In this document: piece after piece, positions 1,446 through 34,861 of the stretch
How the letters are laid out: every line of letters begins with the position of its first letter
How positions within the stretch are numbered: position 1 is the first letter of the stretch
DNA from: Lachnospiraceae bacterium
GTDB lineage: Bacteria > Bacillota > Clostridia > Lachnospirales > Lachnospiraceae
Length of the DNA stretch: 39,621 nucleotides
Assembly (NCBI GenBank): GCA_021771755.1
Contig: JAETOL010000029.1
Span: 1 to 39,621 of the forward strand
Reading direction: 5' to 3'
The notes under the pieces: model-generated
Seen by the model: the letters and a program-made list of their open reading frames with translations, nothing else
Told to the model about the DNA's origin: nothing
Database searches by the model: none
Translations under genes and position numbers: made by a program

Positions 1446-3833
1446 ATGACATGGCCTTTTGAAAATGACACCAGCGTCATTGTAAAGAAATTAGCAAAAC
1501 GCAATGTATCTTCAAATCGTATTTTTTGCTTTTTTAATGTTTTGACCATTGCGCTGGCAATTAGTTTGATTGTGGGAATCTCCTTATTCCAACAAGGCAG
1601 CAAAATTAGTGAACAAAAGATTTTGAATCAAATGCAGCAAGCTACCATCGGGGGGCTTACAGCAGAACAGATAGAAGTTCTGAAAAAAGAACCTGATCTT
1701 GAAGATATTGTACCCTATAAGCATAGTGATAGTTTTCTGATGGATGGGATCAAATTTGAAGCGGTTTATATGCCGACTGGTTTTGGAATTATAAAATCCT
1801 ATGAATTAGTCAGTGGAACCTGTCCAGAACAGTACAATGAAATTGCAATTGATAAAAATGTTCAATTAGAACTGGGGTATCAGCTAAATTTAGGAGATAC
1901 CATCACTTTACCAACGGCGGGGAGTAAAACAGAGGATTTCATCATTACTGGTTTTACTGATAATGTGGAAACAGGAACATTTTACTTTTATGTATCCCCA
2001 GCGTATGCAGAACAGGGCGTGTTATTATCTGATATTCCATATAGTGCCTTGATTCGTGTAAATGGCGCCACAGAAATGGGACTTATTGATTTTGAGAATA
2101 CAGTATATCGTCTGGCTTTATCCCAAGACATAAGCAGGAACCAACTTTATTTTAATAGCAAATTCTGTTCCTCACTTATTAGTGGATCAGGAATGGGAGG
2201 TGTTCTTTTAGCTACTCTTTTTATTGCATTTTCAAGCGGAATTGTCATATACAGTGTGTTCTACCTTTCGGTATCAAATCAAGTGTCGCAGATTGGACAG
2301 CTCAAAACTATTGGCATGACAGAAAAACAGATTAAGCGGATGATTCGTAAAGAGGGGTATCGTTTCTGCCTGTTCGGAATACCTGCCGGTATTACAGTAG
2401 GTATCATATTTGCATATTTATTAGAGCCGAATGGAATAACGATTATCAATGCCATAGCCACAAGTATTTTTGCAATAATATTAGGTATTATCATCGTACA
2501 AATTTCCGTATACAAGCCCGCACAAATAGCTTCAAATATTTCCCCTATTGAAGCAACAAAATATGTTGGAAACGATCCAGAACTAAAAGAAAGTAGAGTG
2601 CGCAACAGGAAAAATCATATTCGTCTCTCACCGTATTCTTTAGCCGTATTGAGCGAAAAGCAGAATCGAAAAAAACACAATCTGACGATTGCCTCGCTTG
2701 CAATCGGCGGGATTTTATTTATGGTTGGAGCCACTTTTATATCATCATGGAATCCAGATTCCTTTGCAAGAATGGGGAATTTGGAAGATGGAGAATATTA
2801 TATTACGATTAACCACAATACATTAGTTAACCCCAAACCGTATGGTATTTCGGAGTATCAAGTTGATACGCCTTTTTCACAGGAACTCATGGAAGAATTG
2901 CAACAAATCCCGGAAGTTAAAGAGATTTATGCTACGGAGAGAACCGCAGCCATTATTGAGTATCACGATGAACAATTAGAAATTCCCATTATTCCGATTA
3001 CGCCTGATAATCAGGAGGAAATTTTGAAAACGCTTCCTGCTGACTGGACATACGAAACATTGGTGGAACAAGACGCTATGGTTATATTAGGAACAAGCGT
3101 ACAGAAAGAAGTCTATCATACTTGCCCGTCAATAGGAGAAAAAGTGACATTACGATGGTTCGATGGAACTGAACACAGCATAGATATTTTGATTGCCGGT
3201 ACTTCCGAAAAAAGTATGAATGAGGGCTTTTATCTTCCAAAAGAAACCATAGAAAAGTTGTGGGGAGATATGGATTTAACAGCTTCCTTAACTTTGTCCG
3301 TACCTGAATATGAAAAAGTGGGTAAATCAGTAGAAAGCAAATTAAATGAAATACTGTCCCGACACCCTGATTTGGTAATGGAAACCTTACAAGAGGTAAA
3401 AGCATCTTCGGCAAATACGATTCATAATACCAGCGTACAAGTTTATGGGGTATCTGCCTTTGTCATTATGTTTAGCATTTTTAATCTGACAAACACCTTG
3501 ATTAGTCGTATCAGTACAAGGAGAAAAGAATTTGGAATATTGGAGTCTATCGGTATGACAAAAAAACAGATAAAGAAAATGCTGCTGCATGAAAGTGTCT
3601 TACTGATTATTCCATGCTTGATTATTACGGTTGTGGCAGGAACCTTGATGGGTTATTTGTTAGTACGGATATTGTCTGCGAATGGATTAACTTATTTTCA
3701 ATATGCTTTTCCTTTTATTCCATTACTGATTTACGGTGTCTGCTTAATAATAACACCTATTATAATTTCTGCTATCTGTCTAAAAATTCAATGCAGAAAT
3801 TCGTTGGTGGAACGGATCAAAATGGCAGACTGA
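1446..3833 (+). CDS. ABC transporter permease, FtsX/MacB-like, module 1
   Basis: A 795-residue membrane protein with the layout of large FtsX-type permeases. There is an N-terminal helix near residues 33-50, an extracytoplasmic domain, a first FtsX block near residues 245-365 (with IGQLKTIGMTEKQIKRMI), a central helix near 412-435, a second large external domain and a C-terminal FtsX block from about 660 (with EFGILESIGMTKKQIKKM). The end NSLVERIKMAD matches the ends of the other two permeases here. The start has GGAGG at 1431-1435. It follows promoter copy 1 directly with no ATPase gene, so it must borrow an ATPase or be non-functional. The gene is more AT-rich than the kinase and ATPases nearby. 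By family it would export or sense an antimicrobial peptide or lipid; the substrate is not deducible. Confidence 0.92.
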   Translation: MTWPFENDTSVIVKKLAKRNVSSNRIFCFFNVLTIALAISLIVGISLFQQGSKISEQKILNQMQQATIGGLTAEQIEVLKKEPDLEDIVPYKHSDSFLMDGIKFEAVYMPTGFGIIKSYELVSGTCPEQYNEIAIDKNVQLELGYQLNLGDTITLPTAGSKTEDFIITGFTDNVETGTFYFYVSPAYAEQGVLLSDIPYSALIRVNGATEMGLIDFENTVYRLALSQDISRNQLYFNSKFCSSLISGSGMGGVLLATLFIAFSSGIVIYSVFYLSVSNQVSQIGQLKTIGMTEKQIKRMIRKEGYRFCLFGIPAGITVGIIFAYLLEPNGITIINAIATSIFAIILGIIIVQISVYKPAQIASNISPIEATKYVGNDPELKESRVRNRKNHIRLSPYSLAVLSEKQNRKKHNLTIASLAIGGILFMVGATFISSWNPDSFARMGNLEDGEYYITINHNTLVNPKPYGISEYQVDTPFSQELMEELQQIPEVKEIYATERTAAIIEYHDEQLEIPIIPITPDNQEEILKTLPADWTYETLVEQDAMVILGTSVQKEVYHTCPSIGEKVTLRWFDGTEHSIDILIAGTSEKSMNEGFYLPKETIEKLWGDMDLTASLTLSVPEYEKVGKSVESKLNEILSRHPDLVMETLQEVKASSANTIHNTSVQVYGVSAFVIMFSIFNLTNTLISRISTRRKEFGILESIGMTKKQIKKMLLHESVLLIIPCLIITVVAGTLMGYLLVRILSANGLTYFQYAFPFIPLLIYGVCLIITPIIISAICLKIQCRNSLVERIKMAD

Positions 3834-3938
3834 TTTTGAAATGTCCGAGCATTGTAACATTTCACCCCGATTTTCAATGAAATTTTTTGGCCGCTGTAAC
3901 ATTTCGCGGACATTTGGGCTTTACAATGACCTTATCAA
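3834..3938 (+). promoter_or_regulatory. Shared promoter/operator element, copy 2 of 3
   Basis: Same element as at 1321: inverted pair AAATGTCCG (3839-3847) / CGGACATTT (3907-3915), boxes TGTAACATTTC at 3853-3863 and 3895-3905 (42 bp apart), and TACAAT at 3922-3927. It begins at the end of the permease 1 coding region with no separate terminator between them. It drives module 2. Confidence 0.82.
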
Positions 3939-22899: not shown

Positions 22900-23088
22900 T
22901 TGCAGATAGGACAATGGATATTGTGCCCTCTATGTGGGAACAAAACAAGGTTAAGAATACGGGAAGATACAGAAATAAGGAATTTTCCGCTATTTTGCCC
23001 TAAGTGTAAACAGGAGACTTTAATCAATGTAAAGGAAATGAATATGTCTGTTATCAAAGAGCCAGACGCTAAGACGCAGAGCCGATAA
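22900..23088 (+). CDS. Cysteine-rich KTR-domain protein (Tn916 orf6-like)
   Basis: 62 residues from a TTG with AAGGGGTGG upstream. Two CxxC zinc-binding pairs, CPLCGNKTRLRI and CPKCKQETLI, include the KTR motif, and the tail PDAKTQSR is very conserved in this family. In Tn916-family elements the equivalent gene sits between the cargo (often tetM) and the divergent orf9 regulator, the position it has here. The role is unknown; it is a good marker of an integrative element. Confidence 0.88.
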   Translation: MQIGQWILCPLCGNKTRLRIREDTEIRNFPLFCPKCKQETLINVKEMNMSVIKEPDAKTQSR

Positions 23089-23123
23089 CCTATAGAGATC
23101 ACACTCTCAGGTTATCGGCTCTG
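23077..23123. terminator. Strong hairpin overlapping the KTR gene stop
   Basis: CAGAGCCGATAACCT (23077-23091) pairs perfectly with AGGTTATCGGCTCTG (23109-23123). The stop codon of the KTR gene lies in the left arm. There is no T tract, so it may act as a bidirectional block or an RNA-stability element. Confidence 0.6.
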
Positions 23124-23276
23124 ATCCGTTCCGACATATTCTGCCATTTTTTGTCGAAAACTTTTTAAAATTATAGACGGTTCATAACTCATTCATAGGT
23201 CATTCATAACTCGGTAGTTTATAATGGCAGAAAAGAAAGAAACCAGCAGTAACAAGAAAGTCTTGTTCTACTGGTT

Positions 23277-23642
23277 TCAATCGGAATCTTCTGATTCTGG
23301 TTTGTGCTGGCTGGTCAGTAACTGCTCCGATAAAAAATCCATTGTATGAAGGAGAATTGCCTGATTTTCTTCACTGCATACCTGGAGTTTACCAATAACA
23401 TGTTCTGCCAGTTCGTTTTTTACGGTGGACTTGGCTGGGAAAAGGGAATTTGGGGAAATTCCCAACCGTTCAATCAAAAGAGATAAGGTTATGTAAGAAG
23501 GATTTTTCCTGCCTTTCTCAATATCCTGAATGGTCTTGACAGCCAAACCACACTGATCGGCCAGCTCCTGTTGGGTAAGATTGCAGTCTTTCCTTTTGGA
23601 ACGGATGCAATCTCCCAAATAGATAAGTTTGTCTTTCGGCAT
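23277..23642 (-). CDS. XRE-family (Cro/CI-like) regulator (Tn916 orf9-like position)
   Basis: 121 residues on the minus strand with AGGTGAG 5' of the ATG. Residues ~10-65 are a helix-turn-helix: LTQQELADQCGLAVKTIQDIEKGRKNPS. The C-terminal half is a probable dimerisation helix region. It is divergent from the plus-strand promoter at 23698, as orf9 is from the orf7 promoter in Tn916. It probably represses that promoter and so controls mobility genes. Confidence 0.9.
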   Translation of the reverse strand: MPKDKLIYLGDCIRSKRKDCNLTQQELADQCGLAVKTIQDIEKGRKNPSYITLSLLIERLGISPNSLFPAKSTVKNELAEHVIGKLQVCSEENQAILLHTMDFLSEQLLTSQHKPESEDSD

Positions 23643-23697
23643 GATAGCTCACCTCAAATACATTCTACCGTACCGATTAGGGAAAATACATTCCCTT

Positions 23698-23726
23698 TGA
23701 GTATGTATAAAATAGGTGTTATAGTG
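23698..23726 (+). promoter_or_regulatory. Plus-strand promoter divergent from the XRE regulator
   Basis: TTGAGT (23698-23703), 17-bp spacer, TATAGT (23721-23726). AATACATTC occurs twice just upstream (23658-23666 and 23686-23694), a possible pair of XRE operator half-sites. Confidence 0.55.
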
Positions 23727-23799
23727 CCGATTATAAAAACAGAATAAGGACCAGGGAAACACTGTGAAAAAAGGAGCATAGTAGTTCCTGAATGTAAGA

Positions 23800-23962
23800 A
23801 TGGAAAGCCCTGTCGGGGAGCCAATAAAAAAAACGGCTTCTTGCAGCAGGGTTTATTTGTGTTATGCCATCTGTGATAAGCCGTCAGGAGAAAATCATGG
23901 ATGGCATTATTTTTACGAAAGGATATAGATTCCGGTCAGGTGACCAGCGAAAAAAATCTTAG
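23800..23962 (+). promoter_or_regulatory. Candidate attenuator with a 21-codon ORF
   Basis: The leader of the presumed orf7-like transcript can form competing stems. GAGCC near 23818 can pair with GGCTT (23835-23839). ACGGCTT (23833-23839) can instead pair with AAGCCGT (23878-23884). ATGCCATC (23864-23871) can pair with GATGGCAT (23900-23907), followed by TATTTTT, a terminator shape. An ATG at 23897, 8 nt after CAGGAG, opens a 21-codon frame to 23962 (start MDGIIFTKGY). The layout suggests translation-coupled attenuation; this is inference from pairing only. Confidence 0.4.
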
Positions 23963-24005
23963 ACTACAAAAGAGTACCTTATACCCATGAACATGCACTA
24001 TACTG

Positions 24006-24030
24006 CGTGTTAGATACGCACAATAACACG
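24006..24030. repeat. Small inverted repeat CGTGTTA / TAACACG
   Basis: 7-bp perfect arms at 24006-24012 and 24024-24030, immediately before TATAAT at 24031-24036. It may be an operator or a short hairpin. Confidence 0.4.
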
Positions 24031-24048
24031 TATAATGCAAGACGAAAC

Positions 24049-24091
24049 AAAAACGCCAGAAAGCAGGTAAAGCTGCCTGGCGTTTTTGTTT
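24049..24091. terminator. Bidirectional intrinsic terminator
   Basis: AAAAACGCCAG (24049-24059) and CTGGCGTTTTT (24077-24087) form an 11-bp stem with A and T runs on either side, and the inner GCAG/CTGC extends it. Between the leader and the sigma-like gene, it would stop read-through from 23726 unless antiterminated. Confidence 0.8.
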
Positions 24092-24386
24092 GTCGATTTT
24101 TCGCAGATATTGGCGACTGGCATCTGAATATGAACTGTATCTTCCAATGGCAGCTTTATAAAACCATTACGAGGCGTCCCGAAAGTTGGTAATCCGGAGA
24201 GGGCAAATAGCTGCCAAGCCCTGGGGCTTCCAATATATTTTATATGCTTTTGGAAAAAGAGATACCGGATATGCGGGTATCCAAAGATACAGTTTTGATG
24301 CTCCCTGTCATGGGGAATTAAGATGCCGATCACCGCCGCCACTTCGATTTGATTTCTAAAAAATTTCAGATCGGAGGTAAAGAAAG
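24092..24386. other. Gene-free leader of the sigma-like gene
   Basis: About 295 bp in which I see no convincing reading frame. GGAGG at 24375-24379 is the ribosome site of the next gene. GATACC/GGTATC near 24261-24280 is a short hairpin. Confidence 0.5.
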
Positions 24387-24827
24387 GTGGCTTATAACAA
24401 AGCAAGAGAAGAACAAAAATGGAAGAACTGGAAAGAACGTGAGGAAGATAAACTCCGGGAACTGGGCATGGATGAAGCGTCCATCCAGGCATTGCGTGAA
24501 AGCGACTGGGCGGATTTTAATTCTGAAAGGCGTTACCAGGAGCATCAGATTCCGTTGTTGGACTATATGGAGTTATTATTGGCAGAAACGGAGATCCGTG
24601 AAGATCAGATCCAGAGTGTGGAAGAACTGCTGGATGCCATAGGTGATGAACGGTTACTACATATCCTGCTGGAAGCAGACAGGAAAACGCTGCAGATCGT
24701 TGTCCTTAAGATGATGGGATATGCCCCAAAAGAGATCAGTTCTTATATTGGTATGCCGGAGCAGACGGTTTATACGAAACTGAGGCGGTTACGGGAAAAA
24801 ATAAAAAAATTTGTGAAAGCTGAATAA
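24387..24827 (+). CDS. Sigma-70 region 4-like DNA-binding protein (Tn916 orf7-like)
   Basis: 146 residues from a GTG at 24387 behind GGAGG. The N-terminus is charged (AREEQKWKNWKEREEDK). The C-terminal ~60 residues hold a region 4 helix-turn-helix: YAPKEISSYIGMPEQTVYTK followed by RRLREKIKK. In Tn916-family elements the equivalent orf7 protein promotes transcription of the mobility genes under orf9 control. The following terminator at 24832 ends this message. Confidence 0.82.
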   Translation: MAYNKAREEQKWKNWKEREEDKLRELGMDEASIQALRESDWADFNSERRYQEHQIPLLDYMELLLAETEIREDQIQSVEELLDAIGDERLLHILLEADRKTLQIVVLKMMGYAPKEISSYIGMPEQTVYTKLRRLREKIKKFVKAE

Positions 24828-24831
24828 AAAC

Positions 24832-24880
24832 GGGACATCCCATCGGCTAGTAAGTAGAAAGGGGGATAGTGTCCCTTTTT
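24832..24880 (+). terminator. Rho-independent terminator after the sigma-like gene
   Basis: GGGACA (24832-24837) pairs with TGTCCC (24870-24875) followed by TTTTT; inner TCCC can pair with GGGGGA. Confidence 0.75.
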
Positions 24881-24889
24881 ACGCACATT

Positions 24890-25380
24890 GAAAATCTTAT
24901 ACCAGCATTACTGGTACGTTCCCATGGATGGTAGCGTTGCAGGATGAGCGCCATGACGGGAAAACCAGAAACAGATGCCAGTGGCGAGCCGTTGTATGAT
25001 TTATTGTACAGGCTCCCATCTGGTATCTGTTCCGGTTTTCTCCGAGCGATCCATCAGACCTGTCAGGGAGCCGCGGCTGGCTCTCCGCCATGAGCATCCA
25101 TGGGGGATAATGATACGTTTCCTGCCAGCAAGCAGAAGATGGACTCCGGGTTGTAATCAGCAAGACCCTCAGAACATTTGCGAATGGCATCCGCCAGATG
25201 CCTGCCAGTAATGTTCCCATATATGCCATGAAAGGAGTGGCACAGGCTGTCAGGGGTGCGAGGTCAAATGTGACACCGACAATGAACAACAATTTAGAAA
25301 TCAATGGAAGTGTGTCGTTGATATCAGATATATGCGGCTGTGGGGAAACCCACAGCCGTGCTTTAAAAGGATGTGTTTTT
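24890..25380 (+). ncRNA. Candidate large structured non-coding RNA
   Basis: No plausible protein frame, but unusually dense nested complementarity. CCCATGGATG (24921-24930) pairs with CATCCATGGG (25095-25104). Inside it, the arm at 24960-24979 (GAAAACC..CAGATGCC) pairs with 25022-25040 (GGTATCTG..GGTTTTC) over ~18 pairs with one mismatch and one bulge. Inside that, GAGCC (24986-24990) pairs with GGCTC. GAGCC (25068-25072) pairs with GGCTC (25079-25083). GAACATT (25172-25178) pairs with AATGTTC (25210-25216), enclosing GGCATC (25186-25191) with GATGCC (25197-25202). A 10-bp hairpin with a GAAA loop ends it (25335-25358). The strand is inferred from neighbours. No known RNA family is assigned. 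Confidence 0.5.
25335..25358 (+). terminator. Perfect 10-bp hairpin with GAAA tetraloop before the helicase gene
   Basis: CGGCTGTGGG, loop GAAA, CCCACAGCCG, then TGCTTT. It may terminate the candidate RNA (weak T tract) or be its 3' domain. Confidence 0.5.
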
Positions 25381-25419
25381 CTTTGGTATTGACGTCATGC
25401 GTGAAAGGCAGGCTATGAA

Positions 25420-27387
25420 ATGAATTATAAGAATCAATATCAAAGAAAAGCACATCGGGAGGTTGACTTTATCTTTTTGACGCTTTTGCCGCAGGCTGGC
25501 CTAAGCGTCAGGGAAGAGCAGGTAAAATTAAGCCATCAGATGTTGGACGCCCTGCTGGAAGGAAATATTGCACTCTGTGACGCAGGTGTGGGAATTGGGA
25601 AAACGTATGCATATCTGGTGGCCTGTATTTTGATGCGGAAATATTTGGTAGCAACGGGAAATGGGTGGCTGTGCGATAAGCGGCCAATCGTTATCTCCAC
25701 ATCCAGCATTGCGCTACAGGAGGCGATCATACAAGAGTATATCCCCTTTTTATCGGATGTCTTTTTGTCAGCCGGATTGATCGGTTCCCCACTAAAAGCA
25801 ATCGTGCGGAAGGGAAAGGAGCATTTTGTCTGTGATGAACGCTTGGGAGTGCGGTTAGAGGCTGTCCGGGAAAAACCTAAGAATGAGCTGCAGAAAAAAG
25901 CGTTGTTTTCTTTAAAGCAGATCTACGACATGGATGAGGTGTCTAATCTGAGCAGTTTTGACCGCAGGCTGGTCTGTGTCCCGAAGTTCTGCCCGAAAGA
26001 GTGTCCGGGAAGGACAAGCTGCCGTTACCAGATGTATCTGAAACAGGCACGGAATCCGGATATCTTTTTCCAGATCTGTAACCATAATTATCTGCTTGCG
26101 GATTCTTCCCACCGGGCTAAGGATTATAAACCGCTTTTGACGGATTACCGGGCGCTCATCGTGGATGAAGCCCATAAACTTCCGGAGGCGGCAAGGCAGA
26201 TGTATGGAAAATCACTCTGCTATGAAGATATTCTGGAAATCTGCTATTTTCTTGAACGGGAGCATCAGGGGATGGCTGCCAAGAAGCTAAAAAGTGTTTT
26301 CCATAACCTGTTCTATGTAGTCAGAGAAAATTACATGGCAAAGGATGGACCAGCATCGGCTTTCCATATGACGGAGGAATGTGCCATCGTGCTGGAAGAA
26401 GGAAAGACGCTTTTAAAGGAACTGACAGGAAAACTAAGGGGAATCGCTCCGGGATGGATACGAAATCAGCTGGAAGAAGCAGGAGAGGTGTTATCTATTT
26501 TTTCAGGCTCCGGCAAACGGTACATTCTGCATTTGGAGCAGGATAAAGGAAAACTGCCGCAGCTGTGTGCCACAAGCAGGAAGATTCCGGATATTCTCTC
26601 CGGTGTGTTATGGAGCCGGGGATTCCCGGCAATCCTGACCAGCGGCACCTTAAAGGCCGGGAATGGCTTTTCCCGCACCCGGCAGGAAAACGGGCTGGGA
26701 AAGGAAATCCGGGTAACGGAGTATGTGGCGGAATCCCCATTTGCCTATGAGAAGAACTGTTTATTGTATCTGCCACAGACACTGCAAAGGACAAAGCATG
26801 GCAGCCGGGAGGAAGCCGTCATGCTGGCACAGCATATCCAACGGCTGATCTGTTCGACTTACGGACATACGCTGGTGCTGTTCACCTCTTATTCTCTAAT
26901 GGGTAGCGTTTACCAGATTTTGCGGGACAGCCTGCCTTTCCCGATGGTGGAAGTATGGCGCAATGCTCAGGAGGAGATCATGCGGTTTAAAACATTGGAG
27001 AATGCAGTGCTGTTCGCAGCCGGCTCTTGTTGGGAAGGTGTTGATTTTCCAGGAGACATCGTATCATCGCTGATTATCGTAAGACTGCCCTTTGCTGTCC
27101 CGGATCCATTAAGGGAGGCGGAAAAAGAGCGGTATGCTACCCTGCCGGAATATATCCGGGATATTATTGTGCCGGATATGCAGAAAAAGCTGCGTCAGGG
27201 TTTCGGAAGGGCGATCCGGACGGAGAGCGATACCTGTGTAGTGTCTATCCTGGATCACCGGGCAGTAGCCGGGGGCAGGTATCATGAGGATGTCCTGTGT
27301 GCGCTTCCAGCCTGCCAGATGGCGGAGTCAATTGAGGATGTGGAAGCCTTTATCCGCAGGCAGAAACAGGAAGGATATTATATGTAG
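25420..27387 (+). CDS. DinG/XPD-type Fe-S superfamily 2 DNA helicase of the mobile element
   Basis: 655 residues. Walker A is DAGVGIGKT (54-62) and the DEAH box is in ALIVDEAHKLPEA (249-252). Between them lie four cysteines in the family's cluster pattern, C138 and then C191, C195 and C201 in FCPKECPGRTSC, a likely 4Fe-4S cluster. The C-terminal helicase motifs include AGSCWEGVDFPGD and QGFGRAIRTESDT (motif VI arginines). There is no N-terminal exonuclease domain, unlike Bacillus DinG. It precedes the recombinase trio, so a role in element replication or excision processing is plausible but inferred. Confidence 0.9.
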   Translation: MNYKNQYQRKAHREVDFIFLTLLPQAGLSVREEQVKLSHQMLDALLEGNIALCDAGVGIGKTYAYLVACILMRKYLVATGNGWLCDKRPIVISTSSIALQEAIIQEYIPFLSDVFLSAGLIGSPLKAIVRKGKEHFVCDERLGVRLEAVREKPKNELQKKALFSLKQIYDMDEVSNLSSFDRRLVCVPKFCPKECPGRTSCRYQMYLKQARNPDIFFQICNHNYLLADSSHRAKDYKPLLTDYRALIVDEAHKLPEAARQMYGKSLCYEDILEICYFLEREHQGMAAKKLKSVFHNLFYVVRENYMAKDGPASAFHMTEECAIVLEEGKTLLKELTGKLRGIAPGWIRNQLEEAGEVLSIFSGSGKRYILHLEQDKGKLPQLCATSRKIPDILSGVLWSRGFPAILTSGTLKAGNGFSRTRQENGLGKEIRVTEYVAESPFAYEKNCLLYLPQTLQRTKHGSREEAVMLAQHIQRLICSTYGHTLVLFTSYSLMGSVYQILRDSLPFPMVEVWRNAQEEIMRFKTLENAVLFAAGSCWEGVDFPGDIVSSLIIVRLPFAVPDPLREAEKERYATLPEYIRDIIVPDMQKKLRQGFGRAIRTESDTCVVSILDHRAVAGGRYHEDVLCALPACQMAESIEDVEAFIRRQKQEGYYM

Positions 27388-27483
27388 AAACAGGTTCGTG
27401 GCGTTGTTGGTACTGACCAGATCTGGAACCGTTTTGCAGCAAAAGTTCAGTGGTATTTCGGGCATTTTCAGGGGAGTTTGGAA

Positions 27484-27512
27484 TTGCTTTGTTGCCCCGG
27501 AGTGGGTATACT
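27484..27512 (+). promoter_or_regulatory. Promoter of the recombinase operon
   Basis: TTGCTT (27484-27489), 17-bp spacer, TATACT (27507-27512), 34 bp before the first recombinase start. Confidence 0.6.
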
Positions 27513-27546
27513 GTGTATAGCGTTAGAAAGGAAGGAAGTGAGTAAA

Positions 27547-28665
27547 ATGGCACAATATGTTGTAGACATGCAGACGGAGAAACAGGAAAAATTCTATTTT
27601 ATCCGGGAGAAAGAAAGCATGGATATTGTACTTTTACCTTCCAAATATCTGATGCACAAGAAACGGTCGAAGATATCACCGAATACGATCCGAAGAAGCG
27701 CATTTGCATTATCCTATTATCTGAACTTTATGAATGAAAACCAACTGCATCTGGACGATGTTTACCAAATGAAATATGCCGAACAGCATGAACACTTTAC
27801 AGACTTTCTGATATGGTTAAAAGCAGGTGAGCATAGCCGGGAGGATTATTCAAAGCTTCCGAATAACGAAACTTGCAATGCGTATTTGAAAGAAGTGTTC
27901 CGGTTCTATACTTTTATAGAACGGGAAAACGGCCAGTCAGAAAGTCTGAAGGTGCTGTCAGATGCACAGACGATTGTGCGAAATTCGATAGGCGTAAGAA
28001 GGGTACTGAACCGAAAGAGCTTTCGGGGTTATTTGAAAGAAAAAGGACATCAGGGAAAAACCATTGAGCAGGACAAGATCGTAAGTTTGCTGCAGGAATG
28101 TGCAAACTGCCGCGATCAGGTTCTGCTTTTATTATTGGCCGAGACAGGGTTTCGTATCGGGGAACTCTTAGGTGTCCGGTACAGAGAGGACATTGATTAT
28201 AAAAACCATGTAATTTATGTAAACTTTCGGGATGATAATGAGAATAACGCAAGGGCTAAGAATGCAGAATTCCGCAGGGCAAAGATCAGTGATGCGACAT
28301 TTGATATCTTGATGTTTTATATTGAAGATTACAAAGAACTGATTCTGAAACAGAAATACCTGTTTATCAATATCTCCGGTGATTACGCTGGGAAACCATT
28401 CAAAGTAAGCGGGGTGTATGCAATGTTACGCAGGCTGGAAGAAAAGACTGGCATCAAGGCATCTCCACATATGCTGAGACATTACTTCGCAAATGCGAGG
28501 CGGAAAGATGGCTGGAAACTGGAACTTATCAGCCAGGCACTCGGACATCGGAATATCGAGACCACCATGAAATATCTGAATATAACAGATGAGGAATTGA
28601 TAGAAGTCAGCGATGCATTTTACAGTAAGCATCAGGCCATGTATGGCATTCAGGATCTGTTATAG
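27547..28665 (+). CDS. Tyrosine recombinase 1 (Tn554 TnpA-like)
   Basis: 372 residues from the ATG at 27547 behind AAGGAAG; a longer frame to 27478 has no site. An N-terminal SAM-like core-binding domain is followed by the catalytic domain with Arg203 (ETGFRIGELL), His308/Arg311 (SPHMLRHYF), His334 (ALGHRNIETT) and nucleophile Tyr343 (MKYLN). All residues needed for strand exchange are present. The length is close to Tn554 TnpA (361 aa). It is the first of three tandem recombinases. Confidence 0.92.
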   Translation: MAQYVVDMQTEKQEKFYFIREKESMDIVLLPSKYLMHKKRSKISPNTIRRSAFALSYYLNFMNENQLHLDDVYQMKYAEQHEHFTDFLIWLKAGEHSREDYSKLPNNETCNAYLKEVFRFYTFIERENGQSESLKVLSDAQTIVRNSIGVRRVLNRKSFRGYLKEKGHQGKTIEQDKIVSLLQECANCRDQVLLLLLAETGFRIGELLGVRYREDIDYKNHVIYVNFRDDNENNARAKNAEFRRAKISDATFDILMFYIEDYKELILKQKYLFINISGDYAGKPFKVSGVYAMLRRLEEKTGIKASPHMLRHYFANARRKDGWKLELISQALGHRNIETTMKYLNITDEELIEVSDAFYSKHQAMYGIQDLL

Positions 28666-28680
28666 GAAGGAGGCGGTCAA

Positions 28681-30657
28681 GTGTCTGCAATCAGATTGCT
28701 GCAAGCTGGACGGCAGGAGGATATACGGCATCTTCACAGGCAGCTTATGTCAGGCGGGATATTGCAGAAGGAACTATGGGAAGAAGCGGAAAGTTTCCTT
28801 ATTAAAAAAGAAATTTATGATGTTATTCTGGCAGAGGAAAAAGATCTTCAGGAATATAAAAAATGTTTGTCGGATAGCGGCAACTATACGAAGAAGCAGG
28901 TAGTGGAGCGGTCATCCGCACTGCGGAAGATCCAGCAGTATTGGGTAGAAACGGAATACGGGGAACTGCTCTCAGAGATCCGGGAATGCCAGGTGCCAGA
29001 TGAAGCATTGAAAGGAAACATTAAGAGGTTTCTCATCCGGCAGGGAATCCATCACATCAGGGATATTGATTATTCGGTGCGGAGCAGATATGAAGCGGAA
29101 TTGCAAAAGACCGGGAATGAGCAGCGTGTGATGAAATATCTGAAGGTATTCGACCATATCAAACAGTACAGTATCCGAAATGAGATAAGCAGCCTGCCGG
29201 GAATGGCAAGGCACCGGATGCAGTATAGAGCGCAGATTATTTTCCTGCCTTACCTGCCGGATCCGGAACTGGTCAAGGATTTTGAATACGTCCAGGATAA
29301 GCAGGAACTGGTATGGGATTTTGCAAGGAGAGCAGCTGATAAATTGAAAAGGCAGGTGTTCCTGCTGTTAAACTATATATTGGAAAATCTATACCAAGAC
29401 AATCCAAAGGAAAGGCGGGTACGGTACTTACTGCCCTTGCACTGGCTGTATGATTTCTGTGTGGATGAGGGTATCGAAGATATGGAATGCCTGGAATTGA
29501 GCCATATCTGCCGATTTGAAAAAATCGTAGAGCAGAAAGTGGTCAATGTAAAAAATTCCATGCAGATCATTGATAACAGCCGGAAAATTTTATTTTTGAC
29601 AGCACCGGAGATCCACTGGCATGCCAATGTGTGGTATATGGAACGGTTCCACTTAGCAGAGGACAGGCTGAATCCGAGCAGCCCGGTGCAGCGGCTGAGC
29701 TTTATAGAAGTTACCAACCGAAAGAACCGGGAACTTCTGCAGGAATACGCAAAATACCATGTTGGAATCGGAGGGCTTACCATAGCTAATATCCGGGGAC
29801 AGCTATATGAGGTTAAGAAACTGCTGGAATATTTTAATGAAGAAATTTCCATCTGTCAGGTGGATGAAAATCAACTGGATGGCTATTTCAGGGAGCTGGA
29901 AGAAAAGGATACAAAGGATGACACGTTTAATAAAAGAATTGTGTGTTATCTGAAGTTTTATCAGTTTTTGAATGTACGGGGATATATCAAGGAAATCCCA
30001 TTCCAGCCGGAGTATTATCTGAAAAAGACGTATCCGGAGCATCATGACAGAACGGTGGAAGAAAAAGTTTATATGGAGATTCTGCATAAGCTCTACTTAT
30101 TTCCGCCGGTTCCCAAGCTGATATTTTTGCATTTGTGGTGTACCGGACTCAGGATCAGCGAAGTATGCACATTAAAAGGAGACGCCTATTATTGGGATGG
30201 GGAAGATGCATGGCTGAAAGTTTACCAGATTAAGATGAAGGCGGATAAAATGATTCCGATACCGTTTATGCTATACATGGTTATGCGGAAATACATAGAG
30301 AAGAACCATATCCACCCGAAAGATTATATATTCAAAGGGAAAAATGGCGGAGCATACCGGGTAGCGACATTTCAGAAAGTATTTCAGCATCACTGCATCA
30401 AGAACCAGATCGCAGATGGGGAATATATTTTTAAATCCCATGATTACAGGCATACGCTGGCTACCCGTTTTTATGACGATGGCGTTTCCATACAGACGAT
30501 CCGGGATTATCTCGGACATTTCTCGGAGGACATGACAAAACAGTATGTAGACTTCATGCCAAAGAGGATCGCCAAAGCGAATGATGCCTATTTTAAGAAA
30601 CCGGGAAATGACCTGGCATCATCTATCACAGTGAAGAAGCGTGGTGATAAGAAATGA
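28681..30657 (+). CDS. Tyrosine recombinase 2 (Tn554 TnpB-like)
   Basis: 658 residues from a GTG with AAGGAGG upstream. A long N-terminal half of unknown fold precedes a tyrosine recombinase domain with Arg491 (GLRISEVCTLKGD), His587/Arg590 (SHDYRHTLATRF), His613 (YLGHFSEDMT) and Tyr622 (KQYVDF). The size and position match TnpB of Tn554 (about 630 aa). The stop overlaps the next start as ATGA. It starts 15 bp after recombinase 1, so all three are one operon. Confidence 0.92.
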   Translation: MSAIRLLQAGRQEDIRHLHRQLMSGGILQKELWEEAESFLIKKEIYDVILAEEKDLQEYKKCLSDSGNYTKKQVVERSSALRKIQQYWVETEYGELLSEIRECQVPDEALKGNIKRFLIRQGIHHIRDIDYSVRSRYEAELQKTGNEQRVMKYLKVFDHIKQYSIRNEISSLPGMARHRMQYRAQIIFLPYLPDPELVKDFEYVQDKQELVWDFARRAADKLKRQVFLLLNYILENLYQDNPKERRVRYLLPLHWLYDFCVDEGIEDMECLELSHICRFEKIVEQKVVNVKNSMQIIDNSRKILFLTAPEIHWHANVWYMERFHLAEDRLNPSSPVQRLSFIEVTNRKNRELLQEYAKYHVGIGGLTIANIRGQLYEVKKLLEYFNEEISICQVDENQLDGYFRELEEKDTKDDTFNKRIVCYLKFYQFLNVRGYIKEIPFQPEYYLKKTYPEHHDRTVEEKVYMEILHKLYLFPPVPKLIFLHLWCTGLRISEVCTLKGDAYYWDGEDAWLKVYQIKMKADKMIPIPFMLYMVMRKYIEKNHIHPKDYIFKGKNGGAYRVATFQKVFQHHCIKNQIADGEYIFKSHDYRHTLATRFYDDGVSIQTIRDYLGHFSEDMTKQYVDFMPKRIAKANDAYFKKPGNDLASSITVKKRGDKK

Positions 30658-32147
30658 GAAAAAGAATTTATGTGTATGAGATGGACTGTTATAAGCAGGC
30701 ATCTGAGGAGCAGATTGAAAAAATGCATATCCGCCCGGATCGGTACTTTGATCTGGAAGGGCTTCCTTCAGAGGATGTCGGCAGGCTGTTAGAAGATTTT
30801 ATATGGGATAGAGGAAAGAAACTTGCTCCCTCCAGCCTGTCAAGTGAGCTGCTCTATTACAATAATATTAGGGATTTTCTGATTGATCGGAATATACGCA
30901 AGCTGGATGTAAAGGCAGAGGAAAAAATAATCCGTATGCTGAAAGGCTGGATGATGGAAAAGGGATATGCCTTATCAAGCAAAAAATACCGAGCGGCATA
31001 TGACAAGATTGGAATTGAAACTCCCGGCATTGTAAAGCACATGAAGAAAATCCTAAAGTTTGCGAAAGAGGATGATGACCGGGATGAGCAGGAAAAAGAT
31101 GTCTGGAACCTGAAAAATTTTGACTTTCCGATTCACTCGAACCCGATCCTGAATATGGAAACCATCAACTTTACGAAGATTACGCAGCCGGATATCCGGG
31201 AGGAAGTGAAAAAAGCAGTCTTTATGCATCTGAAGTATTCTCCGTTAGGCACGATTCAAAGTGAGATGACTGCCATAAAGCGGTTTACCAGGTTTCTTGA
31301 AAAGCGGTGTCCGGATATTAAATCCCTACAGGAACTGGAGAGGATGCATATCGAGCAGTATCTGATTTATCTGCAAACGGAAGCGCATGAACGGAAAAAT
31401 TACAGATCGGATCTTTACGCCCTGCGGAGGGTGATAGAGGATGTCGGAAATCTGTATGAACGGCAGAGCATGAGCGAACTGTTCTTAAGCAATGATTTTC
31501 CAAGCACTCCAAGGCATATCTTCAAGTTTTATACGGATGCGGAGATCAAGAGATTAAACGAACACATTTTCAAAATGGATGAGCAGGTATGCAGGGCGTT
31601 GATTATCCACCAGTTATTGGGAACACGGATATCGGATACACTGACCTTAAAGCCGGATTGTCTGAGCATGAGGGAAGGACGGTATTTTATAAGGATCGAC
31701 CAGGTGAAATCCGTAACGTATGAAAAAGCCATCAGCGAAGAAGTGGCACTGCTTATCATGAAAGCGATCGATTATACGAAAGAGCGGTATGGGGAAACAA
31801 CATACATTTTTGTAAAGAAAAATGATCCGACAAAACCTTACCAGTATAACATGATCCAAAACCAGATCATGACGATGATACGCCAGAAAGATATCCGGGA
31901 TGACAACGGTGAATTGCTGCAGTTTGGTACCCATATATTCCGGCACTGCTATGGCAAGAAATTGACGGAAATGCACGTAGATGACTGGATGATAGCAAAG
32001 CTGCTGGGGCATACCTCAACACAATCGGTGCATTATTACCGGAAAATTGGCAATAAGCTAATGGCGGATGAGACAAGAACTGCAAGAGAAAAAATGGATA
32101 TGATCCTATTAGATATCATAGAAGGATGGGATGATTATGAAATATGA
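30654..32147 (+). CDS. Tyrosine recombinase 3
   Basis: 497 residues, overlapping its neighbour by 4 bp. It has Arg325 (LLGTRISDTLTLKPD), His427/Arg430 (HIFRHCYGKKL), His453 (KLLGHTSTQS) and Tyr462 (VHYYRKIG). Tn554 itself has only two recombinases plus TnpC; three in a row is the arrangement called recombinase in trio. All three have intact active sites, so none is obviously decaying. Confidence 0.92.
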   Translation: MRKRIYVYEMDCYKQASEEQIEKMHIRPDRYFDLEGLPSEDVGRLLEDFIWDRGKKLAPSSLSSELLYYNNIRDFLIDRNIRKLDVKAEEKIIRMLKGWMMEKGYALSSKKYRAAYDKIGIETPGIVKHMKKILKFAKEDDDRDEQEKDVWNLKNFDFPIHSNPILNMETINFTKITQPDIREEVKKAVFMHLKYSPLGTIQSEMTAIKRFTRFLEKRCPDIKSLQELERMHIEQYLIYLQTEAHERKNYRSDLYALRRVIEDVGNLYERQSMSELFLSNDFPSTPRHIFKFYTDAEIKRLNEHIFKMDEQVCRALIIHQLLGTRISDTLTLKPDCLSMREGRYFIRIDQVKSVTYEKAISEEVALLIMKAIDYTKERYGETTYIFVKKNDPTKPYQYNMIQNQIMTMIRQKDIRDDNGELLQFGTHIFRHCYGKKLTEMHVDDWMIAKLLGHTSTQSVHYYRKIGNKLMADETRTAREKMDMILLDIIEGWDDYEI

Positions 32148-32562
32148 TAAAATGATAGAGATTACACAGGCCGAGAGCCGAAGGAAGATGGAGGTTGCAA
32201 AAAAAGCTATTTCTAGTATGCTTGATAATATGGAAAGGATTACCGTAGCAGAGTTAGTAAAGAGGACGGGGCTTTCCAGAGGATTTTTTTATAAAAACCA
32301 GATGGTTAGGTGTGAGCTGGATGCTGCCATCCACAGGCAGGAATCCATCTTTAAGAATCAGCATCCGGTTATAATGGACAAAGAACTTGAAGATACGATG
32401 GTTGATTTGAGGCTTGAATTATTAAAAAGCAAAACGAAAAATGAGGAACTATCAGAGCAGAATCAAGAATTACAGAAGAAAAATGAACAGTTACAACAAG
32501 AGATAGAGAGGTTGAATAAACGGTTAAGTCGGAAAGAAGTCTCCGTTCTGAAAAAACTATGA
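32137..32562 (+). CDS. TnpC/DUF6262-like coiled-coil accessory protein 1
   Basis: 141 residues from the ATG at 32137 (chosen to match its paralogue; ATG at 32131 also possible). The N-terminal ~70 residues contain ITVAELVKRTGLSRGFFYKN, a TetR-like helix-turn-helix. The C-terminal ~50 form a coiled coil (leucine repeats ELSEQNQELQKKNEQLQQEI). Tn554 TnpC, a similar small protein, influences efficiency and orientation of transposition. It overlaps the end of recombinase 3. Confidence 0.85.
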   Translation: MKYDKMIEITQAESRRKMEVAKKAISSMLDNMERITVAELVKRTGLSRGFFYKNQMVRCELDAAIHRQESIFKNQHPVIMDKELEDTMVDLRLELLKSKTKNEELSEQNQELQKKNEQLQQEIERLNKRLSRKEVSVLKKL

Positions 32563-32601
32563 AAATGGTGTGGGCAGGAGTTGGTAAGAGGATGATAGCA
32601 T

Positions 32602-32970
32602 ATGAAATATGATAAAATGGTTGAATGCAGCCAAGAGCGTAGCGAGCAGAAAGTAGAAACAGCGAAACGAGAAATTGAAAAAATGCTGGAATCAAAAGAG
32701 AAAATAACGGTTGCTGCACTAATCGAAAGGACAGGGTTTTCTAAAGGATTTTTTTACAGGAATGAGACAATGCGTAGAGCAGTAAATGAAGCTATGCATC
32801 AGCAGAGCATAACGTATAATCCTAAACAAGTTATTATTGATATGGCTATGGAGACAACGTTGATTAATGCAAAAATGACTATACAGCAGTTAAAGTCGAA
32901 AATAAAAGAATTGGAAAAAGAGAATGCAGAGTTGTGCGAAGAATTGGAAAGAGTAAAAGGAAACAGTTAG
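32602..32970 (+). CDS. TnpC/DUF6262-like coiled-coil accessory protein 2
   Basis: 122 residues. It starts with the same MKYDKM as protein 1 and keeps the core ITVAALIERTGFSKGFFYRN, but the rest has diverged and the coiled coil is shorter. The two are tandem paralogues, not a recent copy. They could form homo- or heterodimers with the recombinases. Confidence 0.85.
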   Translation: MKYDKMVECSQERSEQKVETAKREIEKMLESKEKITVAALIERTGFSKGFFYRNETMRRAVNEAMHQQSITYNPKQVIIDMAMETTLINAKMTIQQLKSKIKELEKENAELCEELERVKGNS

Positions 32971-33014
32971 ATCGTAACATAGATAAGATTCTGATATTTG
33001 AATATGAATAATCT

Positions 33015-33060
33015 AAGGCAGAATGTAATGGTAAAAACCAGGTACGTTCTGCCTTGTTTT
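33015..33060 (+). terminator. Rho-independent terminator at the end of the recombinase operon
   Basis: AAGGCAGAA..GTA pairs with TAC..TTCTGCCTT (13 pairs including one wobble), followed by GTTTTATAT. It marks the right end of the mobile-element genes. Confidence 0.85.
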
Positions 33061-33106
33061 ATATAGATATAAATAATTTGAAAGAGCAGATAACGTGATA
33101 CACATA

Positions 33107-33324
33107 ATGTGCAAAAAGTGCAAAAATCGAGGGAAAAAGACGAATGAGACGTTTTGGTATATATGGTTAAAGCCAGTGTTTACAAGGCTTGCGAGAGATG
33201 AAAAGGACAGGGGGCTAATTTTATGGTCGTGCTGATCGGTCTTGTAATCATTTTTAAGGAACAGCTTACCACTCTGGTAAAGAATATCCTGGCTAAGATT
33301 ACAAAACAGAGCAATTCAATTTAA
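33107..33324 (+). pseudogene. Flp/class III (tad) pilin gene, frameshifted
   Basis: Reading across frames gives FWYIWLKPVFTRLARDEK, then after a -1 shift at about 33200 GQGANF and MVVLIGLVIIFKEQL, then KITKQSNSI. This has the layout of a Flp pilin: basic cytoplasmic start, DEKGQG-like processing region, hydrophobic helix and short tail. No single frame covers it, and the -1 shift occurs at GATGAAAAGGACAGG. The start is unclear (ATG 33107 in one frame, or ATG 33144 behind GAGGG in another). The 33-codon frame 33223-33324 alone is too short. It abuts the mobile element's terminator. Confidence 0.6.
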
Positions 33325-33391
33325 AAAACAGAGTTTTGCGGAGCAGCCATTTTTAGGAGAGCAAAAAGGACATCAGAAAGGAAAGGTATTT

Positions 33392-34861
33392 ATGAAAAAG
33401 GGTAGTATCACGGTATTTTTGGCATTGATCTTAAGTCTTCTTTTGTCCCTGGTATGTACCAGTATCGAATCTGTGCGGATGGCTGCTGCCAGGACTCAGA
33501 TCTTGAGCAGTCTGGATATCGGACTGTATTCTCTGTTTGGACAATATGACCGCATTCTTTTGAAGGATTATGATCTTTTTTTTCTTAATGGCTCGGGAAG
33601 TCAGGGAAAACTGAACCTGTCTTCTGTGTATGATGAGCTGGAAAGCTACATGGAGCCAGTACTGAAACAAAATAGTCAGAAGCTGTCTATAAAGCAGGGC
33701 GGGTTTTCCGGTTATCGTCTGGCGACAGATCAGGATGGAGAGGTTTTCTTTCGACAGGTAGTGACTTATATGAAAAAAACATTGGGAGTTCAGGGAATCC
33801 AGAACCTGGTAGATCAGTTTCAGGAATCCGGGGAACGAGTCCGGGAAGCGGAGGAGACAGGAACTCAGTCAGAAGAGAATCAGTCAATTGAAAATTATGA
33901 TTTGGAAATGGATACAGCGGCTCAGAACAGTGAAGCGGCCCGTCAGGAAGAAGAGAATGCATCAGGAGAAGGAAGAGAACCGGAATTATCAGATGGAACA
34001 CCGCCTCCACAGACAGTCAATCCTATTCCTATACTGAAAAGAATACGAAATATGAGCCTGCTTGATCTTATTGTACCTGCTGGAACAGGAATCTCAGAAA
34101 ACACGGTAGAAAAATCCGCTCTGCTTTCCGGACGAAAATGTCAAAAGGGAATGGGAATATCGGATGAGGTGAAAAAAGATGGTTCGTATGTCTCTCAGCT
34201 TCTATTTCAGCATTATCTGGATGAACGTCTGGGTAGCTATACAGAGCCAGCCAACGGTAGTTTGAAATATCAGAAGGAGTATCTTTTATGCGGGAAATAC
34301 AGTGACAGAGAAAACCTAAAATCGGTTGCAGGAAGACTTCTTATGGTAAGAGAAGGAATCAATGCCGCGTATCTTATGACGGATCCGGCAAAAAGAGCTC
34401 AGGTTCAAAGTCTGGCACTTGCAATTGCATCTGCTTTCCTGGTTCCTCCGGCTTCTGTAATCATTGAGGCGGCTCTTTTCCTCTGCTGGTCTTTTGGGGA
34501 AAGTATTCTGGATCTTAGAGAATTGTTTCATGGAGGAAAGGTGCCTTTGGTCAAACATGCCGGGAACTGGCAGCTGGCACTGGAAAATCTGTCAGACCTT
34601 ATGGAAGGTCTGGACAGCGAGAGAAGAAGTGACGAAAGCGGACTTACATATGAGGAGTATCTTCAGCTTTTGCTCACATCGGAACGGAAACAGGATAAGC
34701 TGAGCCGAGGGATGGACATGATAGAAATGAGCATCAGAAGCAGTACAGGTCAGAATGAGTTTCGTCTGGATCATTGTATAGAAGCAATAGAGGCTTCTGT
34801 AGATGTGAGAGCAAATCGAAAAAAGACATTTATAGTAAAAAAACAGTATAGTTATATCTGA
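33392..34861 (+). CDS. DUF5702-like tad-locus protein
   Basis: 489 residues behind GGAAAGG. N-terminus MKKGSITVFLALILSLLLSL is a TadE/TadG-like type IVb pilin-like helix. A long external region follows, with an acidic, Gln/Glu-rich low-complexity stretch (about 145-205) and a hydrophobic segment near 330-370. DUF5702 proteins of this kind are encoded in Lachnospiraceae tad loci directly after the pilin gene. A role as minor pilin or surface subunit is inferred. Confidence 0.8.
   Translation: MKKGSITVFLALILSLLLSLVCTSIESVRMAAARTQILSSLDIGLYSLFGQYDRILLKDYDLFFLNGSGSQGKLNLSSVYDELESYMEPVLKQNSQKLSIKQGGFSGYRLATDQDGEVFFRQVVTYMKKTLGVQGIQNLVDQFQESGERVREAEETGTQSEENQSIENYDLEMDTAAQNSEAARQEEENASGEGREPELSDGTPPPQTVNPIPILKRIRNMSLLDLIVPAGTGISENTVEKSALLSGRKCQKGMGISDEVKKDGSYVSQLLFQHYLDERLGSYTEPANGSLKYQKEYLLCGKYSDRENLKSVAGRLLMVREGINAAYLMTDPAKRAQVQSLALAIASAFLVPPASVIIEAALFLCWSFGESILDLRELFHGGKVPLVKHAGNWQLALENLSDLMEGLDSERRSDESGLTYEEYLQLLLTSERKQDKLSRGMDMIEMSIRSSTGQNEFRLDHCIEAIEASVDVRANRKKTFIVKKQYSYI

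Follow-up and report, generated by a model that had tools for sequence, protein, structure and literature searches.

The window, the whole stretch of 39,621 nucleotides that was analysed (contig JAETOL010000029.1 of assembly GCA_021771755.1, Lachnospiraceae bacterium), contains a structured RNA segment between a gene for a sigma-70 region-4-like protein and a helicase gene, whose product we take to be of the DinG type (Table 1). An XRE-type regulator gene lies divergently in front of the sigma-like gene, and genes for three tyrosine recombinases and two DUF6262 proteins follow the helicase gene on the same strand. The element is presumably Tn554-like. No conjugation gene was found with Pfam among the ten window proteins scanned. 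The helicase that an initial annotation had placed on the downstream flank of the RNA was confirmed by the PF13307 match of the gene starting at 25420.

Table 1. Features at the RNA locus (positions in the window; x separates pairing strands)
Feature	Position	Strand	Basis
XRE-type HTH_3 regulator gene	23277..23642	-	PF01381
Sigma-70 region-4-like gene	24387..24827	+	PF08281, 22.4 bits, below the curated cut-off of 25.7
Putative canT-like structured leader RNA, whole conserved extent	24841..25393	+	covarying in 25 sequences; synteny in 40 named-genome loci
Short hairpin (AAAGGG / CCCTTT) directly 5' of the boxA-like motif	24858..24878	+	relatives
boxA-like motif CGCACATTGAAAAT	24882..24895	+	best matrix match, at a fixed place in 31/32 window-type RNAs
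P1 5' arm, long-range closing helix	24906..24914	+	compensatory changes; helix at equivalent place in Tn916 canT
P2 5' arm CCCATGGATG	24921..24930	+	both-side changes
Landmark CGCCATGAC at the base of the variable arm	24949..24957	+	ordered landmark chain; identical 9-mer in Tn916 canT
Variable arm	24958..25043	+	base 24959-24968 x 25032-25041
Landmark GAGCGAT	25044..25050	+	ordered landmark chain; found in Tn916 canT
P2 3' arm CATCCATGGG	25095..25104	+	both-side changes in relatives
Landmark ATAATGATAC, start of pemK-like core	25107..25116	+	invariant in 25 aligned sequences
pemK-like core (P7, P8)	25107..25184	+	by-eye correspondence to RF02913 of serine-recombinase relatives
P9 hairpin	25186..25202	+	both-side changes in 4/6 pairs
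P1 3' arm	25205..25213	+	compensatory changes; helix at equivalent place in Tn916 canT
Pseudoknot strand 1 (TCCC)	25215..25218	+	both-side change in 1/4 pairs
P10	25245-25252 x 25271-25277	+	loop holds pseudoknot strand 2
Pseudoknot strand 2 (GGGG), within P10 loop	25253..25256	+	both-side change in 1/4 pairs
Conserved loop segment GAGGTCAAAT	25260..25269	+	25-sequence alignment
3' element: closing stem GTTGATATC x GGTATTGAC around GAAA-capped hairpin	25317..25393	+	alignment
Subgroup-specific 23-nt inverted repeat spanning the helicase start codon	25370..25456 (arms 25370-25392, 25434-25456)	+	fold z -8.8
Helicase gene	25420..27387	+	PF13307
Three tyrosine recombinase genes	27478-28665, 28681-30657, 30654-32147	+	PF00589 in each
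Two DUF6262 protein genes	32131-32562, 32602-32970	+	PF19776 in each

The predicted minimum free energy of 24890-25380 was -187.6 kcal/mol, compared to -153.3 ± 6.6 kcal/mol for 100 dinucleotide shuffles (z -5.2), none of which was as stable as the native sequence. The complementary strand was equally stable relative to its own shuffles (z -5.3), and thus fold energy by itself does not give the strand. The initial annotation had proposed a large structured RNA between the sigma-like gene and the helicase, and this proposal is borne out by the fold energy together with covariation that exceeds a phylogeny-aware null. Structured RNA does lie within the limits proposed for it, 24890 to 25380, but its real extent is larger, about 24841-25393. 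The view that the segment encodes no credible protein also held. A 135-amino-acid antisense open reading frame (ORF) in it had no Pfam match, and the length of the RNA segment differed from that of relatives by a number that was not a multiple of three in 17 of 24 cases. A protein-coding reading was rejected because there was no Pfam match and the variation in length breaks the frame.

Relatives in named genomes were found with a pattern for the 3' end of the RNA, anchored on TTGATATCAGATA..ATGCGGC, a piece that is invariant among the hits because it was the search pattern. The 40 loci recovered belong to hosts which, judging by genome names, are presumably Lachnospiraceae and related Clostridia. 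A sigma-like gene was found upstream of the RNA in 32 of the 40 loci, with six of the eight exceptions running out of sequence (not L031 and L035), and a helicase gene was found downstream in 36, with two of the four exceptions running out of sequence (not L043 and L056). The RNA was on the helicase strand in all 36 loci in which the helicase was found.

Compensatory changes in homologues lying between the same two genes, the check suggested in the initial annotation, were assessed in an alignment of 25 of the 34 distinct RNAs with enough sequence. Left out were L031 and L058, in which the 5' motif was absent from the available stretch, L067, and six RNAs with large inserts (L036, L037, L039, L042, L047, and L062). 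The tested structure of 95 pairs was a hand-edited RNAalifold consensus of the very alignment tested, which favours the structure, and 93.8% of cells paired; column shuffling gave 85.4%, and sliding the partners gave 38-45%. A change on both sides was seen in 225 cells, versus 76 after column shuffling. One of five measures, further pair types, showed no excess over shuffles (196/500). In a phylogeny-aware null that replaces substitutions along the tree, a simplified form of published covariation tests, pairing averaged 81.5% (maximum, 84.4%) versus the observed 93.8%, and both-side cells averaged 49.6 (maximum, 85) versus 222 in the count of that script. None of 300 replicates reached the observed values, and the fold was thus retained beyond the phylogeny-aware null. 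At least one pair changed on both sides was present in 12 of the 17 helices; the five helices with none included P7 and the 3' closing stem.

Several of the stems described initially were recovered. The 10-bp closing stem was located by exact search as the pairing of CCCATGGATG with CATCCATGGG; in this helix, designated P2, both-side changes were found in three of four pairs in columns 101-104 x 284-287 and in none of four in columns 95-98 x 293-296. The stem of about 18 pairs with a further hairpin corresponds to the variable arm (perfect runs, 24960-24966 x 25034-25040 and 24970-24976 x 25025-25031), the base of which had both-side changes in seven of its ten pairs. The GAAA-capped hairpin was also present, with 10 bp (25335-25344 x 25349-25358, exact search). 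A 7-bp stem enclosing a 6-bp hairpin had been described without coordinates; 25172-25178 x 25210-25216 enclosing 25186-25191 x 25197-25202 fits that description, but the outer stem of this candidate clashes with the consensus structure and is unsupported. The pairing of CATTACTGG with CCAGTAATG, put forward as evidence of alternative folds, is instead the conserved closing helix P1, since the remaining stems as far as 25202 lie inside it and relatives maintain its pairing through compensatory changes: among the 25 sequences, UA is replaced by CG in five, and AU by UA or UG in five.

The part of the RNA that is 3' of P1 is the module with the pseudoknot. The lone pseudoknot pair with changes on both sides is a UA-to-CG replacement in five sequences. 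By eye, the order of the pseudoknot strands was identical in several RNAs of the pemK type described below, and several of these RNAs have GTCGAGGACAAAT or a similar sequence as a counterpart of the conserved loop segment. The 3' closing stem, the 5' side of which lies within the search anchor, had no both-side change in the window-type set; in the more distant RNA L070 it is changed and still pairs. At the other end of the RNA, the initial annotation had placed a terminator. A short hairpin does exist there, but the terminator scan made no call at this position. A hairpin of differing sequence occupies the equivalent place in relatives (by eye), and a TTTT run precedes the boxA-like motif in 11 of the 25 sequences, including the window.

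The motif that follows this hairpin resembles the boxA sites in rRNA leaders of related genomes and differs from them in preceding a large structured RNA. It was scored with a matrix built from 16S-leader sites of five genomes, which is not fully independent because the leader sites were picked with a pattern taken from this motif and from recall. The best match lay 30 bases before the end of the searched stretch in 31 of 32 window-type RNAs and was one base off in L039. Several sequences in the boxA counts are near-identical; scores of at least 9 were obtained in 28 of 32 window-type RNAs (antisense, 0/32; shuffles, 6.6%) and in 18 of 24 pemK-type loci (antisense, 2/24; shuffles, 19%), and a match was found in all five serine-recombinase-type loci. 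Among 28 16S leaders, a site with at most two mismatches was present in 18 and a site with three mismatches in four, those of genome G138; the other six, from the window's own genome, G118, and G544, had no site or only poor ones. A plain boxA pattern was not enriched in the own genome (20 matches versus 25 for the reversed pattern).

In order to place the RNA among known families, Rfam models were run on the window and on 12 relatives. No family reached its gathering score in either, and a permissive scan of the region gave weak miRNA and leader matches only, all below cut-off. Membership in ROOL or GOLLD, for which the initial annotation had called for a scan, was thus not upheld. Of its idea that this might be a large noncoding RNA of a mobile element, a covarying structured RNA of such an element stands, but membership in ROOL, GOLLD, or another Rfam family does not.

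The family to which the RNA proved closest was the pemK RNA (RF02913), which Rfam types as Cis-reg and which was reportedly first described in Weinberg 2017. The RF02913 model itself reached its gathering score neither in the window nor in the 12 relatives, and the core of the window RNA has diverged beyond it. A covariance model built from 20 window-type 3' modules only (R1) matched seven of 391 genomes of the window's class at E values of ≤0.01, two of them within its own family. Four of the matched RNAs (L071, L072, L073, and L075; E values of 4e-5 to 6e-4 per genome) all overlap RF02913. In L071 to L073 the RNA sits, as judged from ORFs, between a sigma-like gene and genes for a SHOCT protein and a serine recombinase, with Pfam run on L073 and on the SHOCT peptide; L075 aligns with these three. 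In L070, likewise outside the family, the first 44 residues of the sigma-like protein precede the RNA, and this locus looks like a truncated relative. L074, a weak R1 match, was set aside. The serine recombinase ORF of L072 (1884-3183) is short, with further ORFs behind it that we take to resemble a group II intron reverse transcriptase; this recombinase may therefore be interrupted.

When R1 was run on 32 loci fetched for or carrying RF02913, seven matches at E values of ≤1 were obtained, six of them at or just 3' of RF02913 and one, in L137, elsewhere. The reciprocal model (R2), built from nine pemK-type RNAs only, gave 18 matches at E values of ≤1 in 27 window-type sources, with 17 inside the RNA (10 of these at ≤0.025; best, 1.5e-4) and that in L063 outside it. 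Nothing inside the RNA was matched at this threshold in the window and nine others of the 27 sources. Two matches were found in 28 other sources, and one of these was a window-type RNA. The two RNAs correspond in several ways: both RF02913 and the window core start at ATAATGATAC, neighbouring motifs on both sides are shared as judged by eye, and the models match in both directions. The Rfam model describes 61 positions, whereas the RNA as a whole is much larger.

Among 245 genomes of the class to which the window belongs, 71 had a match to RF02913 above its cut-off; none of 14 control genomes had one. In 20 hand-chosen RF02913 loci with longer flanks, the nearest upstream ORF had a sigma-70 region-4 match (E value of ≤0.01) in 10, an HTH_16 match in three, and no family in seven. 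Downstream, the nearest ORF of 180 residues or more encoded a serine recombinase in 11 loci, a tyrosine integrase in three, and a ParA-type ATPase in three; it had no family in two loci and was absent from one. L206, one of these 20 loci, was identical over 561 bases (100%) to ten plasmid records, and in two of them the gene next to it is annotated as "excisionase from transposon Tn916."

Tn916 itself carries an element for which a function has been demonstrated. According to the main text of Wirachman and Grossman 2024 (PMC11658703), canT is a 452-bp segment, 126 to 577 bp after the orf8 stop codon, that was experimentally shown to be an orientation-specific, cis-acting, processive antiterminator. 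As described there, its activity requires no other Tn916 gene and extends to unrelated terminators, and it does not complement in trans (PMC11658703). In the Tn916 copy of AP026651, RF02913 was found at +283 to +383 after orf8, and therefore the pemK RNA lies inside canT. The inactivating change canT(S3) turns ATA into TGC and was aimed at a tyrosine codon in orf5, an ORF on the antisense strand (PMC11658703). The single 83-codon antisense ORF that our script found in the Tn916 canT region has two tyrosine codons, both within ATAATGATAC; the S3 change thus probably falls in this motif, which corresponds to window positions 25107-25116.

The resemblance extends to the genes. In a Pfam check, the Tn916 cassette consists of an HTH_3 regulator on the minus strand followed on the plus strand by a Sigma70_r4 protein, an HTH_16 protein, the RNA, xis, and int, which strengthens the parallel with the window: in both, a divergent HTH_3 regulator gene and then a sigma-like gene precede the RNA, and recombination genes follow it. 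Within both RNAs, a boxA-like motif comes first, then a long-range helix, and then CGCCATGAC, GAGCGAT, and ATAATGATAC. Both are overlapped by an antisense ORF, the protein product of which is dispensable in Tn916 according to the text of PMC11658703. In contrast, the window core is diverged, its 3' module has a pseudoknot and a long 3' hairpin, no Orf8-like or HTH_16 gene lies between its sigma-like gene and the RNA, and it has a helicase and three tyrosine recombinases where Tn916 has xis and int. With small variations, the landmarks CGCCATGAC, GAGCGA, and ATAATGATAC occurred in order in 31 of 32 window-type RNAs, in none of 1920 shuffles, and in none of the 32 antisense strands; a looser pattern was matched in 16 of 31 canT/pemK-type loci and in 8 of 1550 shuffles. 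Taken together, homology of the window RNA to the RF02913-bearing RNAs and canT is well supported by these sequence comparisons.

Tn916 canT has a helix of 12 bp at the position of P1. Among 21 canT-type loci, in which L115 and L189 are one element counted twice and from which four loci had been dropped for a weak boxA score and four for the lack of a recognised core, the helix in this place exceeded the 95th percentile of shuffles in 10, seven of these at P1-like offsets, and did not stand out in 11. The best helices of L115/L189 and L123, at other offsets, were probably spurious and were rejected. In L072 an 11-bp complement (AACAGCTCAAA / TTTGAGCTGTT) was missed by the helix script, probably because its 5' part lies beyond the 40 bases searched. 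These counts weaken the support for P1 in canT-type loci. The active 452-bp canT fragment described in PMC11658703 begins 7 nt inside the boxA-like motif, and the motif may therefore not be essential.

Searches of the literature collection available found nothing linking pemK RNA, boxA, and canT. The put and EAR RNAs are much smaller than the window RNA. These two elements, put being that of HK022, and conAn2 of pLS20 are named in the text of PMC11658703 and share with the mechanism proposed here a cis-acting RNA that causes read-through of terminators; conAn2 works with a protein, ConAn1. The terms "pemk," "boxa," and "rfam" do not occur in the main text of PMC11658703.

The structure of the window RNA is conserved, its homologues include pemK RNA and canT, and the genes around it form a matching cassette; from these findings we infer antitermination by the window copy. 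Most probably it is a divergent canT-type antiterminator leader RNA before the helicase and three-recombinase operon. Of the earlier suggestions, regulation of the helicase or the recombinases comes nearest to this reading, in the form of a cis-acting leader of that operon related to canT. RNA polymerase would start upstream of the sigma-like gene and transcribe the short hairpin and then the boxA-like motif, followed by the large RNA, closed by P1 and holding ATAATGATAC and the pemK-like core, and by the pseudoknot module. The nascent RNA would render the polymerase resistant to terminators, as shown for canT in Tn916 (PMC11658703). Read-through would allow expression of the long operon for the helicase, the three recombinases, and the DUF6262 proteins and, after excision of the element, of genes across the circle junction too. 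NusB and S10 might contribute through the boxA-like motif, perhaps merely in an auxiliary way. In 25380-34000, six terminator-like sites were found versus 7.0 in shuffles, so there is no clear target for read-through downstream. The discoverers of canT consider it complicated to infer its activity from predicted structures (PMC11658703).

A leader of the same family might instead be a local attenuator or riboswitch, with the 3' hairpin as a conditional terminator set by the large domain. Such an arrangement would suit the conserved stem that encloses this hairpin, the distance of about 80 to 115 bases that separates the hairpin anchor from the helicase in 23 of the 36 loci with a helicase, and the presence of TATTTTTGTG behind the hairpin in L112, L121, and L124. 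However, the U tract behind the hairpin is broken in window-type RNAs, the terminator scan calls no terminator there in the window, and canT is processive and acts on unrelated terminators (PMC11658703), which a local attenuator would not. Thus, it seems unlikely that the RNA functions as an attenuator.

Still less likely is a trans-acting large noncoding RNA, comparable to ROOL or GOLLD, that is released from the transcript. The RNA is large, with a variable peripheral arm and a pseudoknot, as might be expected of such a molecule, but the Rfam models gave no match at gathering scores, the RNA invariably shares the strand of the helicase where a helicase was found, and its relative canT does not complement in trans in the experiments reported in PMC11658703. 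Equally improbable is a main role in blocking or timing translation of the helicase through a hairpin over its start codon. The hairpin at this start is strong (Table 1), but it was found in just three of eight loci folded, one of which is the window's own copy, and in 13 of 36 loci some 600 to 830 bases separate the RNA anchor from the helicase start. The inverted repeat that forms it is 91% complementary and contains an insertion found in close relatives of the window.

Returning to the antiterminator reading, it appears likely that pemK RNA and canT belong to a single family of large antiterminator RNAs, in which a boxA-like motif forms the entry and P1 closes the core. The family would travel as a cassette with a repressor and a sigma-like protein and work for mobility machineries that are unrelated to one another, namely Tn916 xis-int, large serine recombinases, ParA-type elements, and, in the divergent branch to which the window belongs, a DinG-type helicase with three tyrosine recombinases. 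An RNA motif that is widespread, yet classed by Rfam as cis-regulatory and no more, would thereby gain a proposed function, and the Tn916 antiterminator a comparative framework. The reading also suggests that mobile elements of gut bacteria commonly use terminator read-through as a switch.

A BLAST search of 397 genomes of the family gave matches in 14, including the own genome; in three of these (G050, G147, and G251) the match spanned only 35 to 51 bases and is probably due to chance. The R1 model found the RNA in 11 of the 397. A 9.5-kb block, 22983-32450, is common to the window and another genome at 95.7% identity. Neither the window query nor a serine-type query matched a plasmid. A viral origin was rejected, since the strict pattern was absent from viral contigs (IMG/VR) and the lone matching phage record carries the same transposon genes. 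In that record (L210, MT835648.1, unverified Bacteriophage sp.), a sigma-like gene, the RNA, a helicase, three recombinases, and DUF6262 are present, and it is probably this transposon plus its surroundings. A looser pattern matched 11 loci in viral contigs, five of the serine-recombinase type and six not; the five (L094, L096, L097, L099, and L101) carry the RNA together with SHOCT and serine recombinase genes.

Several loci had features of their own. The window's own genome has two further RF02913 RNAs, both on contigs other than that of the window (G000:C62:15413-15470 and G000:C115:3304-3404). In L107, an element with excisionase-like and integrase-like ORFs, a c-di-GMP-I riboswitch (354-443; 67.5 bits) lies about 1.1 kb upstream of the pemK-type RNA. 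In L043 ([Clostridium] symbiosum MAG S32_Bin7), the helicase and the first recombinase were not found behind the RNA, and the second half of the second recombinase gene lies there on the minus strand (3372-3936). Hespellia stercorisuis has two copies of the RNA about 11 kb apart on one contig (L055 and L056, NZ_FQZY01000006.1), and no helicase was found within 6 kb behind the L056 copy. In a variant group (L005 to L008, L034, L048, L053, L059, L061, L064, L066, and L067), about 0.8 kb separates the RNA anchor from the helicase start, and the sigma-like gene, where it is in the sequence, lies farther upstream; in L005, open frames occupy both gaps around the RNA.
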